Both the position numbers and the translations under genes were made by a program. Positions 3,129 to 43,783 of a DNA stretch of 43,955 nucleotides are shown here, piece after piece. This DNA is from Bacillota bacterium (GTDB taxonomy: Bacteria; Bacillota; Dehalobacteriia; UBA4068; UBA4997). Numbering within the stretch: the stretch's first letter is position 1; each line of letters opens with the position of its first letter. The notes under the pieces were generated by a model, which was not told where the DNA came from, ran no database searches, and worked only from the letters and a program-made list of their open reading frames with translations. Where the stretch lies: contig JAETTP010000016.1 in assembly GCA_021769035.1 (NCBI GenBank), positions 1 through 43,955 on the forward strand. The letters run 5' to 3'.

Positions 3129-5693
3129 TTAATAAAGATTGAAGAGGATTTTGGCAATTTCCGCCCTGGTGATGTTAGCCAAAGGCCTAATTGTGCCGTC
3201 CTCGTAACCGCTAACCAAACCAAGGCTTACTAAACGCTCTACGTGTTCCTTAGCCCAGGCGCTGACTTGCTCCGCATCCGTAAATTCCTGTTGCTCGGAG
3301 GGATACTTATTCGTTAAAATGCGGCCGATAACAGCCATCGCTTCTTGTCGGCTAATATTACTGCGCGGATAGAAGTAAAGCTCTCCCTTAATGTCCTGGC
3401 CGGTCATTATACCGGCTGCATAAACGGCCCGGATTGCACCCAAAGACCACCCCGGAATATCCGGCCGATCCTGATAAGGCAAACTAATCTCCTGCGAGGT
3501 ATCCAGCTGCAAATAACGGGCCACGATCACGGCAAACTCTGCTCTGGTCAAATTGCGCGAGGGGTTAAACAGCTGCTCACCCAACTTGTTGGTTTCTCCT
3601 TGCATTAAACCTTGCCCGCTAAGATAACTTATATAATCGGCAGCCCAATGCGTGCCGGCAACATCTTTATAGGCGGTGGTTTCTGAGGTTACAGCCTCGC
3701 CCACCCTGATGGTGACTGATTTGCGTGCTAAAACTCCCTCGTTATCCTCTGCTACCAAAGTTAAACGGTGCAAACCGTCTGCCAAACCGCTGAGTTCCGC
3801 CTGCAAAATGCCGGTTTCAGCCTCATAAGCAAAATCCAGCTTTTTGCCGTCTAAAAGCAGCTGAAGCTGCTCTTTCGCTGGGAAGTACGCGCCCAAACCG
3901 GCCACCGCCCGGAAGCTGATATTGACCGTTTCGCCACTGTTTATAGTTGTAGGCAAAGTCACCGCCACAATGTTAGGCCCCTCGCCTTGGGTCAGCTGGC
4001 TGATCTGCACAACCGCCTGCGCCGAACCGAAGCGAGCGATAATTTGGCCGCTTTCGTCCTTGCCGCCGGCATGATATAAGCCCTGCTGGTCAATCGTGCC
4101 AATATAGCCCACCAATTCCCAAGTAACATTTTCATCACTCATTGACACGGCCTCGCCTTTATATAAGCCGCTTACGGACAAATCAACTTCATCGCCGGGC
4201 AACACCAGCAGCTGAGATATGGCATTGCTGTTTTGGGAAATCTGTAATTCGCTCAAGGAGGACAAAATATAAATGTACTGGCTACCGCTAACCTGACCCG
4301 ATTCAGCCTTTAACAAGGCTGTTCCGGCTATCTCGCCGGCCGTAAAAATATTATCTTGCACCGTTCCCATTGTATTACTAACCTGCCAGTTCGGTTCAGT
4401 ATTCAGCGTGGTTGGCTGCATAGCAGCGTCCAAAGCCGTCAGCTGCAACTCCACGGAAGCGCCGGCCAAAACGTAGCGGGTTTTCGGTTCAATATTCAGA
4501 TAGGCCGGCCGCCCGTCTGAGCGGGTTTTATTCAGCAAAAATATGTAATTGGCGCACATGCGCAGAGAACCGTCCGACGGCGAATTAACCACCGCCAGAG
4601 GGCGGCCGCTCAGCTTCACAGAGATGGCCGAGGAACCGCCGCCATCCAGATTAATCGCGTCGGTAGCTCCCAGGGCAGCCATTTCCTGGGCCAAAACGTA
4701 TGGCGAAAGGCCCACGCTACGGCCAGCTTGCCGACCGTCATTTTCAAAGAAAATCATTGTGCCATCCGGCTTAAAACCGATAGCGGTGCGGGCTGAGTTG
4801 CCAGTCGGCGTATCATCAACTGCCGCCACACCGTTCAGCAGCAGGGATTTACCGCCCACCGCATAAACAACCTCCTGCCAACGGCTGTCGTCAACGCTGA
4901 CCGAAAAGGTAAGCTCATCGCCAACATTAAAAACTGCAACCTTAGTAGCGTCACCGGTTGCGGCAATCGTCAAAAGCATTTGATTTTCCGCCAAGGGGGT
5001 AGATTCGGCAGTTTCCGTAACTGAGAGCACTCGCAGACGAATGGAACAGCCTAAATAAGGATCGGTTTCTTCCAGCTTTTCCAGTAACACGTTAGTGCCC
5101 AGGCTGTCAATACGAGTCTGCTCGCCCCAGTTATGGTCGTAAAGATTTACCGTATAAGAGGAGCGGGTTTTATTAAAATTTTCCACTTGCACAGTGTGCC
5201 CGGCGCCTTGCAGCAGCATAGTCAGCTGCGGTTTGCCAAAAACAGCCGTGCCGTCGGCCCGAAAGCCCACGGCATACGCTCCACCAGCAGATGTAATAAG
5301 CGTGCTGTCCTTAATCACAATGCCAATCGGGATACCGGTGCCCATATTAAAAAAATCAGCGTTAAAACCTGCCACAGGGTCGGCAGCCAAATCGGTCTGC
5401 AAATAATCGGCCACGTAATTAATAGTCGATTTGCCATAAAAGCCACGGCCGTAAGCCACAACCGGCAAAACATCTTCATTAGGGGTATATTCCAAATAAT
5501 GCTGCTTTTGCAGACCCAGTTCATTTTCGCCGGCCACATTATAATATTTAAGGCCCGCGCCAACGTCATAAACCTGTGGATAAGCAGCTGTTAAAGCCCA
5601 GGCCGGCCGGGCCGGCGCCAGGCAGATAACGGCTAGCAACAAAATGCCAAAAAGTCTTAACAGGCTACACAACCTGCACCATCTCAATATCAA
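3129..5693 (-). CDS. SLH-domain phosphodiester glycosidase family exoprotein
   Basis: An exported protein of about 854 residues. A hydrophobic signal segment ends at an AWA motif. The next ~350 residues resemble the phosphodiester glycosidase (NAGPA/DUF2233) domain: FNADFFNMG, an AVGFRADGT repeat, and NLDGGGSSA, the family signature. Ig-like beta modules follow, then three S-layer homology repeats over the last 180 residues, which anchor proteins to secondary cell-wall polymers. The domain acts on sugar-1-phosphodiester bonds in characterised relatives; the substrate here is unknown. The frame extends to a TTG at 5714, but a GGGAGG at 5702-5707 points to the TTG at 5693, just after the stop codon of the upstream gene. 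It is probably co-transcribed with that gene. Confidence 0.82.
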   Translation of the reverse strand: MILRWCRLCSLLRLFGILLLAVICLAPARPAWALTAAYPQVYDVGAGLKYYNVAGENELGLQKQHYLEYTPNEDVLPVVAYGRGFYGKSTINYVADYLQTDLAADPVAGFNADFFNMGTGIPIGIVIKDSTLITSAGGAYAVGFRADGTAVFGKPQLTMLLQGAGHTVQVENFNKTRSSYTVNLYDHNWGEQTRIDSLGTNVLLEKLEETDPYLGCSIRLRVLSVTETAESTPLAENQMLLTIAATGDATKVAVFNVGDELTFSVSVDDSRWQEVVYAVGGKSLLLNGVAAVDDTPTGNSARTAIGFKPDGTMIFFENDGRQAGRSVGLSPYVLAQEMAALGATDAINLDGGGSSAISVKLSGRPLAVVNSPSDGSLRMCANYIFLLNKTRSDGRPAYLNIEPKTRYVLAGASVELQLTALDAAMQPTTLNTEPNWQVSNTMGTVQDNIFTAGEIAGTALLKAESGQVSGSQYIYILSSLSELQISQNSNAISQLLVLPGDEVDLSVSGLYKGEAVSMSDENVTWELVGYIGTIDQQGLYHAGGKDESGQIIARFGSAQAVVQISQLTQGEGPNIVAVTLPTTINSGETVNISFRAVAGLGAYFPAKEQLQLLLDGKKLDFAYEAETGILQAELSGLADGLHRLTLVAEDNEGVLARKSVTIRVGEAVTSETTAYKDVAGTHWAADYISYLSGQGLMQGETNKLGEQLFNPSRNLTRAEFAVIVARYLQLDTSQEISLPYQDRPDIPGWSLGAIRAVYAAGIMTGQDIKGELYFYPRSNISRQEAMAVIGRILTNKYPSEQQEFTDAEQVSAWAKEHVERLVSLGLVSGYEDGTIRPLANITRAEIAKILFNLY

Positions 5694-5710
5694 ATTTTCA
5701 GCCTCCCAGA

Positions 5711-7747
5711 TCAATCGTCAGTCAGCGCGTAAGAGATAATAACCTCTTTGCTGGCTGAATTAAATACGCATTTGCATTTTAATTTTTCCGAAACATAGCG
5801 GATTGGCACAAAAGTGGTACTATTCACAATTTCCGGCGCCACGTCAAAGTCTTCAATTATTTTACCAACCTGCATATAAAAGCGCTCGTCGCCCTTTTTA
5901 ATCGTGATTTGCTTGTACTCGCTGTTGTAGTTTACGGAAGCGCCCAAAGCCTCGGCAATCACCCGAACCGGCACCTGGGTGCGGCCGCCGGAAATATAGG
6001 GCGCAGCGGCTAAAGGTTTGCTAACGCCATTTACAACGTAGCTCTGTCGGCCAATGCGTAAAACAACCTTGCCAGCCACCAAACCGCTACGGTCAATTTC
6101 TACCTTGTAGGTGGCAGTTTCGCCATTTTCAGCCGTCACCGAAATCACCACGCTGGTTGTTGCATCACCAAGCGGGAATTTTTCCGATTCTACACCGCTG
6201 GTCAGGGTTTTGTTGTTGACGGTAATTGTGGCGTTGCTGGAAGCCGCCGTGGCCGTAACGGTATAAACTTTCGAGTCATCGTCAGCCGAGGTTTTGTAAT
6301 TATAATTTGTCCGTGTAAAGCCCGGCGAAAAGCTGACCGGCAGATTATCCACCCGAATAACCAGATTGTCCAGCAAATAGTTATCATCTAAAACCCTGGC
6401 CGAAACATTCAGGTTGTAATCTTGATAATGCTTAAAATCAGCGCTGAAAACGCGCACTGCCACCTTATCCTCCATGCTCAGCTGCACAGGGTCGCAGTAG
6501 CCGGATTCGGAAAGCTGAAACATCTTGTTGCCAACCACCAAAAAGGCCACGCAGCTGCTGTCAATCAGAGAGGGTCTAAAGGAAAAATAGCCGTAAGCGG
6601 AATCCATAACCAGCTCGTAATTGTAAATATCACGGGTAAAGATCGGTATGGTGTCCTGCATCATCATTGTATTTTCGTTGCGGGTTGCCCCCTGCTTAAT
6701 CCGCAGGTTAGTCATCACCGGCTCCGAGCCCTCCGTGCGCGTTGCCCGCAGCATATTAATGGTGTAAACGTGAATTTGATTGTTCAAATCCGTCACCATA
6801 ACCATCACCTGATTGCCGCTGGTGCTGGCCACAAAGGAGCCGCTGGCCCGGCCGTTGGGCACCACCACGCCGTCAATGCTGATAGTAGAGCCTGTGTTGC
6901 CTAAGGTTGGCGTAATCGTCACATTACGGGCGCTGTTGGGCAGGCAAACATAGTAGTTGTAAATTTCCGGGTCAAACTTGGGAAAAAGCTCATAGGTGTC
7001 CGTGCCGGAATTGATTTTTAAGGAACTCAAAGCGCCCTGTGCGCTGGCTTCGTTGGAAAGGCGATTAACTTCAATCTTATATTGCGTATAATTATTGGGC
7101 TTGTCCTTAGTGGCCACCGTTATGTAGATGGGCATAGCCTTAACGTCAGGCAGTTCAATCTCCCAGGTGTTGTCAGTGGATTCCTTAGTGTTATATTGCA
7201 CAATGTAATCGTTGGAAGATGGCTTAACCTGCATTACCAAACGGTCAACCCAGGAGGGGATTGTCAGCACATTACTGGAGGCCAGCGAATCAAAAGTGTA
7301 GCTGAAATTTTGCCCCTCAAAAAGCACCGCGTCAATGCCCTGCGCTTTGCTACGCAGTTGCAGGTAATAATGCTTTTGCAGGTTGCCGTCCTTATCCAAA
7401 ATTTTAATAGTTACATCTGCGTAACCATTCGGCAAATTAACAACATAATAATTGCCGTCCAGATTGGCTCCCTCAATATCATAAAAGCCGTTGCTGACGG
7501 TGGCCCGAATGCGCACTGTGCTCCAATCCACCACCTGGCTCATGGAGCCGCTGATATTGCTGCCGGAAATAACCACGGTGTCGTCAGTATCATAATAATC
7601 ATAGAGATAAACCTTTTCCAGCTCATAGTTTGTGGTGGTGGCCGCCTGCGCTGGGCTTAGCCAAAAGGCAAATAGCACACACACAGCCAGGCCAAAACAC
7701 AGAGCCCAAGCCCTCGTTGGTTTTTTGGCGAATAAAGCTGCAAGCAT
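5711..7747 (-). CDS. Exported cadherin-like/copper-amine-oxidase-like domain protein
   Basis: A 678-residue secreted protein. The N-terminus has a basic patch, a hydrophobic core and an AQA signal-cleavage motif. The middle holds several repeats of the cadherin-like beta-sandwich type, recognisable by LSSLKINSG, the F.P.IYNY motif and a closing V.TDLNNQIHVYTINM-like strand. The last ~110 residues match the copper-amine-oxidase N-terminal-like domain (VPVRVIAEALGA, then TFVPIRYVSEKL), common in wall-associated proteins of Firmicutes and not evidence of oxidase activity. The ATG at 7747 is preferred because an AGGGGG lies ten bases upstream; an in-frame start at 7780 lies before that site. It probably works at the cell surface with the SLH protein encoded next. 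Confidence 0.8.
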   Translation of the reverse strand: MLAALFAKKPTRAWALCFGLAVCVLFAFWLSPAQAATTTNYELEKVYLYDYYDTDDTVVISGSNISGSMSQVVDWSTVRIRATVSNGFYDIEGANLDGNYYVVNLPNGYADVTIKILDKDGNLQKHYYLQLRSKAQGIDAVLFEGQNFSYTFDSLASSNVLTIPSWVDRLVMQVKPSSNDYIVQYNTKESTDNTWEIELPDVKAMPIYITVATKDKPNNYTQYKIEVNRLSNEASAQGALSSLKINSGTDTYELFPKFDPEIYNYYVCLPNSARNVTITPTLGNTGSTISIDGVVVPNGRASGSFVASTSGNQVMVMVTDLNNQIHVYTINMLRATRTEGSEPVMTNLRIKQGATRNENTMMMQDTIPIFTRDIYNYELVMDSAYGYFSFRPSLIDSSCVAFLVVGNKMFQLSESGYCDPVQLSMEDKVAVRVFSADFKHYQDYNLNVSARVLDDNYLLDNLVIRVDNLPVSFSPGFTRTNYNYKTSADDDSKVYTVTATAASSNATITVNNKTLTSGVESEKFPLGDATTSVVISVTAENGETATYKVEIDRSGLVAGKVVLRIGRQSYVVNGVSKPLAAAPYISGGRTQVPVRVIAEALGASVNYNSEYKQITIKKGDERFYMQVGKIIEDFDVAPEIVNSTTFVPIRYVSEKLKCKCVFNSASKEVIISYALTDD

Positions 7748-7846
7748 AAAAGTAAGTCCCCCTTTTTTTATGATATACAAAATTAATTAGGTCAAATTTT
7801 AAGTATAAAAATTTTTGACTATGATAAGCGTATCTTGCTATATTGA

Positions 7847-40193: not shown

Positions 40194-40886
40194 CTATTCC
40201 TCAAAGGATTTATGCAGCTTTTGCAGGGCTTTTTTTTCAATCCGGCTGACATAGGAGCGGCTGATTCCTAGCTGTTTGGCAATCTCCCGCTGGGTGTGCT
40301 CCTCCGCCCCGCACAGGCCGTAGCGTTGAATGATTATATAACGTTCCTTAGGAGAAAGGCCCTTTAGGGAGAGATGCAGCATCCGCTCGTCATCCTTGCT
40401 TTCCACGGTGTCCAAAATCTCGGTGCCATCGCTGCCCAGGGTTTCCAGCAGGGTAATTTGGTTGCCCTCCTTGTCGGAGCCAATCGGGTCGTTCAGAGAA
40501 AGCTCCGTGCGCCGGTTTTTAGTGGCCCGCAGATACATCAGCACCTCATTTTCAATGCAGCGGGCGGCGTAAGTGGTTAGCTTGATATTCTTGGCCAAAT
40601 CAAATGTGTTAATGGCCTTAATCAGGCCGATAGTGCCAATGGAAATTAAATCCTCTCGCTCCGGGCCGTGATTTTCAAACTTTTTCACAATATGCGCCAC
40701 CAAACGCAAATTATGCTCAATCAAAGTTAAGCGGGCGTTTTTGTCCCCCTCCGCCCAAGCCTGCAAATATTTTTTTTCTTCCTCCGGGGCCAGCGGCTTG
40801 GGAAAAGCGTTGCTGTTCAGATAACCCAGCAAAAAACCCATTCCCGGCACCAGAGAACCAAACAAGTAGATAAGCTCCCAAAACAT
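40194..40886 (-). CDS. sigK: Sporulation sigma factor SigK (pro-form)
   Basis: The late mother-cell sigma factor of endospore formation, 230 residues. It starts with a hydrophobic pro-segment (FWELIYLFGSLVPGMGFLLGYL), as in B. subtilis pro-SigK, which must be cut off to release the factor. The region-2 block LIEHNLRLVAHIVKKFENHGPEREDLISIGTIGLIKAI and TYAARCIENE are close to SigK; region 4 ends in a helix-turn-helix (TQREIAKQLGISRSYVSRIEKKALQKL). The gene is continuous, with no skin-type element splitting it. GGAGG lies eight bases before the ATG. Confidence 0.93.
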   Translation of the reverse strand: MFWELIYLFGSLVPGMGFLLGYLNSNAFPKPLAPEEEKKYLQAWAEGDKNARLTLIEHNLRLVAHIVKKFENHGPEREDLISIGTIGLIKAINTFDLAKNIKLTTYAARCIENEVLMYLRATKNRRTELSLNDPIGSDKEGNQITLLETLGSDGTEILDTVESKDDERMLHLSLKGLSPKERYIIIQRYGLCGAEEHTQREIAKQLGISRSYVSRIEKKALQKLHKSFEE

Positions 40887-40923: not shown

Positions 40924-40951
40924 ATTCTATGCGAAAAATATAAAATAATGC
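40924..40951 (-). promoter_or_regulatory. Possible SigE-type promoter of sigK
   Basis: On the - strand CATAGAAT (40924-40931) matches seven of eight positions of the SigE -10 consensus and is preceded, 13 bases away, by GCATTAT (40945-40951), a weaker match to the -35. sigK is transcribed by SigE in B. subtilis, so the fit is plausible. It overlaps the terminator of the upstream gene. Confidence 0.35.
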
Positions 40952-40978
40952 CGATACCCCAAAACAAGTACCGGCATT
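40935..40978 (-). terminator. Terminator of the M56-M23 unit
   Basis: On the - strand AATGCCGGTAC pairs over 11 positions with GTATCGGCATT (one G-T pair; + strand arms 40947-40957 and 40968-40978), followed by ATTTTATATTTTT. It begins nine bases beyond the stop codon. Confidence 0.85.
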
Positions 40979-40986
40979 TTCTATTT

Positions 40987-43296
40987 CTATTCAAACAGCT
41001 CCAAAGGGTCAACCGCCTGACCGTTCTGTAGCACAACAAAATGCAGGTGATTACCGGTGCTTTGGCCGGTGGAGCCAACATAACCGATAATCTGGCCGGC
41101 TGCCACCGTATCGCCGGCCTTAACCGCCAGGCTGGACAAATGAGCATAGCGGGTTTCCCACGCGCCCATATCCGCGTGCTGCAAAATGATTTTGTTGCCG
41201 TCCTCGCCCATATAGCCGGCCGCCAGAACCTGCCCCGCCGCCGCGGCCAAAACCGGCGCGCCATGCACCGCCGGAATATCAATCCCACTGTGCTGCCTGG
41301 GGCCGCCAAAGCCGTAACTGATATTGCGATATTTCTCCTCAAGCGGCCACTGCCAATGCTGCTCGCTGTTTTCTCTTAAAGGCGCGCTATCCCGATTGCT
41401 GCTGCGCAGGCCGCCAATCAGCCAGCTGCCATCCTGCTGCCGCTCCACCTCCAGCGTTAGGGAAAGTTCGCTGTAGCCGCTTTGGCCGTCCGGCCGAATA
41501 ATTAAAGCGTGCAGTTCCAGACTGTTCGGCTCCGCCGCCCGCTGCTCCGCATAAACGGCCACGGCCTCGCCCAGCATAACGTCAGCATACTGCCAGCCGA
41601 CGCTTTCCAGCACATATGGCGTGCAAAAAGACTGCATTTTCTGATAATCGCTTTGCCGCCAGGCCTGCAAAAACTGTGCCGCCACCGCAAACTGCTCCGG
41701 CAAGGGCAAAACAGTATCCACCGTTTTAGCTTTGCTCGGCAAAGGTAGGCTGACCAGCCGCAGAATTTCACCGTTGTTTTTATCATACTGCAAAATCATC
41801 AAGCCATCAAGAAAGCTGCCGCCCCCGGCCGCCGACATTTGGGCAATCCCAAACAACATTTCCGCCGGCACGTAAATCACATCATTGCGCATTTGCGCGC
41901 CCACCTGGCCGTCTGTTAGGCTGAACTGCCGCTGGTAAAAGCAATGCCGTACCCGGCCGCCGGCCGCGTCCATTTGCCACTGGTAAAGGTTCAGCTTAAC
42001 CAAGCCGTTTTCATATTGCAGGCTGTCGCTGTCGTTCGGCTCAATCACCCGGAATTTTTCCAAAGCTTCCCGCAGCGGCAAATATATCTGCCCGTTTTCA
42101 GCTACAAACGGCGCGTTAGTCAGCTGCAGCTTTTCCCCATTATTGCTCAGCACAACCACACTGGCCGCCGGGCTGAGATTATTCTCCTCCGCCCGGATTT
42201 CCCTGGCCGCCTTAACGCTGTAAGTCGCGCCCAAAAGTAGTATCAACGCCGTTAATATCCCGGCCAGCAGCCGCACAGCATTGCTGCGGCCGGCTTTATG
42301 TTTACTAATCACTTCAAACCTCCTTTTAAGATCGCTTTTCGCCGTATTTAACCCCGTATACAGTTTATTTTGGGCCGGCAGCGCAACGGACAGGCTGGCA
42401 ATGCGCAAAATCGTCCGCATATAATCCTGCCTTTGGGCTTGGTTCCAAAAACGGGTCACTTTCAAATCGCAGCAAATTTCACATTCCTGCTCCAGCTGCC
42501 GCTCCAGCAGATAAATCGCCGGATTGAACCAATGGACGGATTTAACCAGTAGCATAGTCCATTTAATCCACAAATCCTTTTGCTCCAAATGGTTCAGCTC
42601 GTGCTTTAAGACGTTATGCCAATCGTCAGCGGAAAGCTCAGCCGCCGGCAGCAACAGGCAGGGATTAAGCAGGCCAATCAGCAGCGGCGCCACAGGCAGG
42701 GCCTCCGCCTTTTGCCGGCGCAGTTCCAAACCGGGAACTGAACAGCGCATTTTGTCAACATCACTGTCCGGCAGCGGTATATCCTGCCAGAAAATGGCCT
42801 CGCTGGTTTGGCGCAGGCCGGCCGCAAAACGGTGATATTTGCGCAGACGGCTAAACAGCAGCAAGCAGGCAATCAATAGCCAGGCCACCGCCAGATCAAA
42901 GGTTAAATCACTGTGCAGCACAACCGAAAGCCAGTTTGGCGGCTCGGCCAGCGCTTGCTGCGCCAAAACCTCCGGCACGGCAGTAGGCAAATCCACCGCT
43001 TCCGGCGCAAATTGAACTTGCTTCACCAGGGAAGCCGACGGCGCAGGCTGCGGAGAAAGCGGCACTTCCCCGTCGGCCCCAGCGTTAGCTCCGCCGCCCC
43101 AGCCATACATCAGCAGACACACGGGCGAGATAAGCAGCAACATCAGCAGGTTTCCCCAAATTTCATATTGCCAATCGTGCCCCAGCCAGCGGCTGGTAAA
43201 ACGGCGCGCCGCAAACAGCAGCAAAATCAGCGCTGCCGCTATCATCGAAAGGGCCGCCGTGTGCAAAAAAATGTGTAAGAAAAATTGCCTAAGCAT
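40987..43296 (-). CDS. BlaR1-like M56 protease fused to an M23 peptidoglycan peptidase
   Basis: A 769-residue membrane protein with two peptidase modules. The N-terminal ~350 residues have helices near 8-31, 47-66 and 130-150, then the cytoplasmic zinc site HELNH (H232, E233, H236) and the third ligand region EICCD (E273), the hallmark of BlaR1/MecR1 M56 proteases. A fourth helix (about 340-362) leads outside to a copper-amine-oxidase-like segment, a linker domain and, at 650-769, an M23/LytM domain with intact ligands H669 and D673 (HSGID), H719, and H750/H752 (HLHF). In BlaR1 the outer part is a penicillin-binding sensor; here it is replaced. It is 11 bases after a BlaI-type repressor gene. 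Confidence 0.9.
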   Translation of the reverse strand: MLRQFFLHIFLHTAALSMIAAALILLLFAARRFTSRWLGHDWQYEIWGNLLMLLLISPVCLLMYGWGGGANAGADGEVPLSPQPAPSASLVKQVQFAPEAVDLPTAVPEVLAQQALAEPPNWLSVVLHSDLTFDLAVAWLLIACLLLFSRLRKYHRFAAGLRQTSEAIFWQDIPLPDSDVDKMRCSVPGLELRRQKAEALPVAPLLIGLLNPCLLLPAAELSADDWHNVLKHELNHLEQKDLWIKWTMLLVKSVHWFNPAIYLLERQLEQECEICCDLKVTRFWNQAQRQDYMRTILRIASLSVALPAQNKLYTGLNTAKSDLKRRFEVISKHKAGRSNAVRLLAGILTALILLLGATYSVKAAREIRAEENNLSPAASVVVLSNNGEKLQLTNAPFVAENGQIYLPLREALEKFRVIEPNDSDSLQYENGLVKLNLYQWQMDAAGGRVRHCFYQRQFSLTDGQVGAQMRNDVIYVPAEMLFGIAQMSAAGGGSFLDGLMILQYDKNNGEILRLVSLPLPSKAKTVDTVLPLPEQFAVAAQFLQAWRQSDYQKMQSFCTPYVLESVGWQYADVMLGEAVAVYAEQRAAEPNSLELHALIIRPDGQSGYSELSLTLEVERQQDGSWLIGGLRSSNRDSAPLRENSEQHWQWPLEEKYRNISYGFGGPRQHSGIDIPAVHGAPVLAAAAGQVLAAGYMGEDGNKIILQHADMGAWETRYAHLSSLAVKAGDTVAAGQIIGYVGSTGQSTGNHLHFVVLQNGQAVDPLELFE

Positions 43297-43307
43297 AACT
43301 TAATACC

Positions 43308-43691
43308 TCACAGTTTAAAAAGCTCCCTAAGCTCCGCAATATCCTGCTCGGAAAGCTGCCGGCTGGCCACCAGCGAAGCCGCCAGGCTGCCCACGGAGCC
43401 GTGATACAACGTGTCCAACAGGTCGTTGGCCGCGCTTTGGCGATAAGCCTCCTCATCCACCGCCGCCCGGTACAAATAACCGTTGCCGCTGGCGGCTTTT
43501 TGCCGCTGCACCGCGCCTTTTTCCTCCAAACGGGCCAGCATAGTCGCCAGGGTGGTGCGTTGCCACTGCTTATCAGCTAGGCATTGGTTGATTTGCTTGG
43601 CGGAAAGCCCGGCCGGAGCCGCCGACTGTCCCTGCCAAAGCGTCTGCATAATCGCCAATTCCGCTTTGGTTAAATTGTGTTGATACTTCAT
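43308..43691 (-). CDS. BlaI/MecI-family transcriptional repressor
   Basis: A 127-residue winged-helix repressor of the BlaI/MecI/CopY family. The DNA-binding region runs from LTKAELAIMQTLW through TTLATMLARLEEKGAVQRQK and YLYRAAVDEEAY; the C-terminal half (LLDTLYHGSVGSLAASLV and following) is the dimerisation domain. In the Bla and Mec systems the membrane protease triggers cleavage of this repressor. Here its partner is the M56-M23 fusion encoded 11 bases downstream. Two dyads in its own promoter suggest autorepression. Confidence 0.9.
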   Translation of the reverse strand: MKYQHNLTKAELAIMQTLWQGQSAAPAGLSAKQINQCLADKQWQRTTLATMLARLEEKGAVQRQKAASGNGYLYRAAVDEEAYRQSAANDLLDTLYHGSVGSLAASLVASRQLSEQDIAELRELFKL

Positions 43692-43732
43692 TTAAATCTA
43701 CCACCTGTTCTTGATTATTCCGGAATAAATTA

Positions 43733-43783
43733 GTCTACATCTATAGACAATTATATTCTACACTTGTAGACGGGATTTGTCAA
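43733..43783 (-). promoter_or_regulatory. Promoter and twin operator dyads of the BlaI unit
   Basis: On the - strand TTGACA (43778-43783) and TAGAAT (43755-43760) have a 17-base spacer. A perfect dyad TCTACA-CT-TGTAGA (43757-43770) lies across the spacer, and a second, imperfect dyad GTCTA-N6-TAGAC (43733-43748) covers the start region; their centres are 23 bases apart. The TACA/TGTA cores are those of BlaI/MecI operators. Confidence 0.85.

Follow-up and report, generated by a model that had tools for sequence, protein, structure and literature searches.

What does a BlaR1-type membrane protease do if its outer part ends in a cell-wall peptidase? The question is raised by a two-gene operon on a contig of a Bacillota bacterium. 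We analyzed the contig's entire 43,955 bases as one window; the genome assembly (G000) is 2.23 Mb. To our knowledge, BlaI/M56 pairs are common, and almost everything known about their function was learned from beta-lactam receptors. Our preferred but tentative reading, to which we assign a probability of roughly 45%, is that the operon is an autorepressed wall-hydrolase module whose most likely output is the M23 enzyme itself.

The operon and its setting

On the minus strand, blaI comes first and is followed, after a gap of 11 bp, by a gene for a membrane protein that joins an M56 module to an M23 peptidase. An earlier description of this DNA, made from its letters alone (the first-pass annotation), had placed both open reading frames correctly. 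The genes, domains, and terminator are as follows; G004 and G008 are relatives from the same genus.

40947..40978, minus strand: terminator-like hairpin after the operon, seen in the sequence; it parts the operon from a sigma factor gene at 40194-40886
40987..43296, minus strand: gene for the M56-stalk-linker-M23 membrane protein, 769 amino acids (open reading frame and Pfam)
41005..41295, minus strand: M23 peptidase domain, residues 668-764 (PF01551, E 3e-31; H669, D673, H719, H750, H752)
41377..41721, minus strand: linker domain, residues 526-640, no family, conserved at 78-82% against G004 and G008
41722..42144, minus strand: stalk-like outer domain, residues 385-525, similar to copper amine oxidase N1 below threshold (profile matches with E 0.0016-0.02)
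42307..43257, minus strand: M56 (BlaR1-type) module, residues 14-330 (PF05569, E 3e-36)
42589..42603, minus strand: M56 zinc motif HELNH (H232, E233, H236), aligned with H201/H205 of BlaR1
43308..43691, minus strand: blaI-type repressor gene, 127 amino acids (PF03965; end-to-end alignment with MecI 1sd6 and BlaI 1sd4)

All BlaI and M56 genes of the genome, four of each, form pairs, and only the window's pair includes an M23 domain. The other three pairs (C81, C91, and C21; L001-L003) have different outer domains. A search of plasmid records found none that covers 80% of the fusion protein.

The gene directly downstream (40194-40886) encodes a sigma-K-like sporulation sigma factor with an apparent pro-sequence, and its position is kept in G004, G008, and a third relative, G005. 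We considered whether it belongs with the operon and dropped the idea, as a terminator lies in between and there was no other support.

The repressor and the M56 module

The Pfam matches for M56, M23, and Penicillinase_R are all well above their cut-offs. The repressor matches Penicillinase_R (PF03965) with E 2e-27, and its alignment with the sequences of the solved MecI and BlaI structures runs from end to end, which places it in the BlaI/MecI family.

The fusion protein has both the M56 profile and the HExxH...E pattern of that family. H232, H236, and E273 align with H201, H205, and E242, the zinc ligands of BlaR1 (PMC9834060), and an arginine pair (325-326) aligns with R293-R294 of BlaR1. 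Long helices near residues 2-37, 40-67, 130-164, and 339-374, where the predicted model has moderate confidence, are likely membrane spans. The aligned P1' positions are hydrophobic (Leu316 in a loop of the M56 module and Leu107 in BlaI, within Ser106-Leu107 in the BlaI alignment), which is at most compatible with cleavage of BlaI.

As the first-pass annotation had it, this is an M56 switch that lacks the penicillin-binding sensor: neither Pfam nor NCBIfam detected a penicillin-binding or transpeptidase domain at any point of the fusion. The NCBIfam equivalog model for blaR1 requires 400 bits and reached 90, all of them contributed by the M56 part. The system would work like BlaI/BlaR1, yet it does not belong to the BlaR1 beta-lactam sensors, because a search for the sensor domain that defines them found none.

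The outer part

The M23 domain has the family pattern HxxxD...H...HxH in full. H669, D673, H752, and H719 had already been picked out as zinc ligands, and H750 is present too; the residues look catalytic.

The evidence for the stalk is weaker. It had been called a copper-amine-oxidase-like segment, and it does match the copper amine oxidase N1 profile in three orthologous regions (E 0.0016-0.02), but all of these matches are under the Pfam cut-off (the best were 18.6 and 18.8 bits, against 24.2 for membership in PF07833). A profile comparison aligned both halves collinearly (P 0.001). We consider the stalk to be similar to copper amine oxidase N1, and not a proven member of the family.

The linker was rightly recognized as a domain of its own: it is genuine conserved sequence that no family claims, with only weak NTF2-like leads in our family searches. 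Structure predictions of the whole fusion and of the outer part had low confidence (mean pLDDT of 47-49), and a comparison of the outer part to PDB folds gave no significant match (best E 0.009).

Operators and regulon

The region upstream of blaI contains a strong promoter that is overlapped by twin dyads, which the first-pass annotation had also reported.

43734..43747, no strand assigned: second dyad TCTACATCTATAGA, one mismatch from the perfect dyad, just downstream of the -10 element
43755..43783, minus strand: sigma-70-type promoter, TTGACA-17-TAGAAT (11/12), from sequence
43757..43770, no strand assigned: perfect dyad TCTACACTTGTAGA, overlapping the promoter's spacer and -10 element

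The one-mismatch copy lies 23 bases from the perfect dyad. In three related species (G004, G005, and G008), this operon has both dyads too, despite differing flanks. We infer from this position that the twin dyads are the BlaI operator.

The earlier description had left open which genes besides the operon are controlled, and had proposed scanning the genome for the dyad. The perfect dyad, TCTACANNTGTAGA, occurs once per genome, at this operon only, in four species (G000, G004, G005, and G008). When up to two mismatches are allowed, 24 sites are found in G000 and 32 with the reversed control; looser sites are not in excess in this search, which would miss more diverged operators and covers incomplete assemblies. 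Of the one-mismatch sites in relatives, one is common to G004 and G008, and we rejected it as a target, as it falls within the coding sequence of an apparent flagellar gene.

The confinement of the perfect dyad to the operon and the lack of excess looser sites suggest that the regulon of this BlaI is probably its own operon, with no other genes in G000. Two possibilities had been raised, a switch that responds to the state of peptidoglycan and one that remodels the wall itself. Because no other genes are apparently controlled, the remodeling branch seems favored over a sensor of other genes.

Orthologs in the genus

The same outer part is found in orthologs from G004, G005, and G008, all in the same genus, and is absent from the other 39 genomes of the class that we searched. 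The G008 gene is split by a contig break. Stalk, linker, and M23 domain are each 71-82% identical between G000 and either G004 or G008 (71-78% for the outer part against G004), with dN/dS of about 0.08-0.16, a rough figure because synonymous sites are near saturation. From this identity and these ratios, the outer part is evidently under constraint and being kept.

The membrane module appears to be diverging unusually fast. Between G000 and G004, the M56 part is 35-46% identical and dN/dS is 0.29-0.46 (again rough, with synonymous sites near saturation), and across related species this module (42217-43296, compared with L022) has changed far more than the outer part or BlaI. We rejected a mosaic origin by a swap with a sampled paralog, since the M56 tree keeps the window's orthologs together (100/99). 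A similar pattern is seen between distant fusions, in that G211:C11 (L107) and G173 (L073) are 74% identical in M23 and 36% identical in M56.

Loss of zinc ligands in close relatives had been named beforehand as evidence that would count against the proposed switch. Such a loss is seen in one of the three orthologs. In G005 (L023, minus strand, about 900-1300), an out-of-frame deletion, which may be an assembly fault, removes the first half of the M23 domain and with it H669 and D673; the remainder of the domain is open in another frame, and the M56 module, stalk, and linker are still open. The residues are intact in G004 and G008.

In G005 and G008, a gene for an S41-family lipoprotein-like protein (E 1.9e-23) heads the operon, placed after the twin dyads and before blaI (L020:4281-5579 and L054:470-1753). 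This gene is absent from that position in G000 and G004, whose operon consists of blaI and the fusion only. The S41 protease CtpA is described as degrading wall hydrolases elsewhere, in the available text of PMC11021448, and by analogy the S41 lipoprotein may trim the M23 protein.

Distant fusions

The first-pass annotation had suggested looking for M56 and M23 together beside BlaI, and the combination is found in distant Bacillota as well. M56-M23 fusions lie directly behind blaI in two genomes of the same order (G003 and G026) and, in another family of the phylum, in G173, in G242, and at two loci of G211. Several of these loci also have a pair of dyad-like sites, of differing sequence, ahead of blaI.

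On the M56 tree, the hypothesis that all fusions share one origin is rejected (p 2.5e-8), and two smaller groupings are not rejected (p 0.20 and 0.14). This suggests that the combination probably arose at least twice.

The active-site residues of M23 are complete in G000, G004, G008, G003, G211:C40, and the frameshifted G242. One site histidine is replaced by glutamine or lysine in G173 and G211:C11, and the site is degenerate in G026. Because some distant fusions have M23 domains with missing site residues, catalysis does not seem to be universal.

How the system might work

In the reading that we prefer, BlaI would sit on the two dyads, which overlap the operon's own promoter and start, and would keep expression low. 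By homology to BlaR1, the fusion would span the membrane, with the M56 protease in the cytoplasm and the stalk, linker, and M23 domain outside. By analogy with BlaR1, the outer part would receive a wall-related signal that makes the M56 site active, and BlaI would be cut. More membrane-tethered M23 enzyme would then appear at the wall, along with new BlaI as a reset. The operon would rise alone, because no other operators were found at two or fewer mismatches. As the operon is the sole apparent target and consists of blaI and the fusion alone, the M23 enzyme would be the most likely output. In the two relatives with the S41-type lipoprotein (G005 and G008), this protein would rise as well. M23 could perhaps also be a wall-reading feature, besides its probable role as output. 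Several observations argue for an autorepressed module: the intact catalytic residues of both protease domains, the dyads over the promoter, the single perfect dyad per genome, the pairing of every BlaI gene with its own M56 gene, the constraint on the outer part, the twin dyads at several distant loci, and the precedent of a one-operon BlaI in Clostridium thermocellum. The loss of H669 and D673 in G005, and the degenerate or histidine-substituted M23 domains of distant fusions, argue against it, as does the limited reach of the operator search.

Work on Bacillus licheniformis reports that BlaI comes off its operator in vitro in the presence of the dipeptide gamma-D-Glu-m-A2pm (PMC3305447). 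As peptidoglycan fragments reportedly act on BlaI there, the activity of the M23 hydrolase could also feed back directly on the repressor.

The main alternative has M23 serving chiefly as an input domain that binds peptidoglycan, like degenerate LytM domains, with hydrolysis minor and the response carried by the S41 lipoprotein, in genomes that have it, or by unrecognized genes. The degenerate site in G026 and the missing histidine in G173 and G211:C11 fit this, as does G005, where M23 is partly deleted (possibly an assembly fault) beside an open M56, stalk, and linker, and so does the S41 gene that heads the G005 and G008 operons. But the operon of G000 and G004 is blaI and the fusion alone, no other operators were found in G000, and G000, G004, and G008 retain all five site residues. 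On balance, we find this reading doubtful.

A bolder form of our preferred reading is a closed-loop wall enzyme: a membrane-anchored M23 hydrolase would read cross-linking via its own outer part, and the fused M56 would destroy the repressor of its own gene and so set its own dose, and Bacillota would have evolved this design repeatedly. We consider this full version to be unlikely.

Another idea is that BlaI acts on other wall genes via diverged operators, or that M56 cuts further cytoplasmic proteins. In staphylococci, BlaI and MecI control separate resistance genes, which is a precedent, and the genome does have about twenty dyad sites with two mismatches. However, the looser sites are fewer than in the reversed control, and the one-mismatch site of G004 and G008 is inside flagellar-like coding sequence, so a wider regulon seems quite unlikely.

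It is also conceivable that M23 joined an M56 receptor by chance and is uncoupled from the switch, in a decaying or opportunistic fusion. The distribution is sporadic and the copies in G005 and G242 are frameshifted; on the other hand, the outer part is under purifying selection in G000, G004, and G008, and the combination beside BlaI probably arose more than once. We view a chance fusion as very unlikely. Finally, a disguised beta-lactam receptor with BlaR1-like working has the BlaI and M56 homology in its favor and is extremely improbable, given that there is no penicillin-binding domain.

Relation to known systems

As in the BlaI/BlaR1 and MecI/MecR1 systems of staphylococci and Bacillus licheniformis, a Penicillinase_R repressor adjoins an M56 membrane protease, the HExxH...E site and the arginine pair are conserved, and dyads lie at the system's own promoter. 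Unlike those systems, the outer part is stalk, linker, and M23 instead of a penicillin-binding sensor, and the operator does not control a gene for beta-lactamase or PBP2a. The M23 domain shares all five active-site residues with LytM/MepM-type endopeptidases, but it is fused to a BlaR1-type membrane protease and is under its own repressor.

The available text of a 2022 review of M23 peptidases names M56 among their rare partners, with both peptidase families in one protein as in the window, and reports that no role of M56 in wall cleavage had been shown (PMC9662197). This agrees with the earlier remark that such combinations may already be annotated with no described function. That text gives no function, partner, or regulation for M23+M56 proteins; the linkage to BlaI, the twin operators, and the repeated origin are added here. 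Among open-licence papers, we found no study of a BlaI-M56-M23 system.

The closest parallel in regulation is BlaI_1845 of Clostridium thermocellum, which, according to DAP-seq, controls no operon but its own; that operon also contains blaR1 and a putative wall gene (PMC8457756). The one-operon regulon is alike, but there the wall function is a separate gene, and the available part of that paper describes no M23 fusion.

An M56 receptor with a wall-hydrolase outer part, and with itself as its sole visible target, is a testable case of a dangerous enzyme that would be tuned by regulated proteolysis. If this is true, it would suggest that M56 receptors are general devices for wall homeostasis, with beta-lactam resistance as one use.

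Other genes with related domains

Elsewhere in the window (3129-7780) are two large secreted proteins. One ends in S-layer-type repeats, and the other has a copper amine oxidase N1-like C-terminus. In G173, the next gene after the fusion (L073:1277-1714) encodes a secreted protein whose copper amine oxidase N1 domain is a proper one (E 1.6e-10); in the window, the similar domain is inside the fusion.
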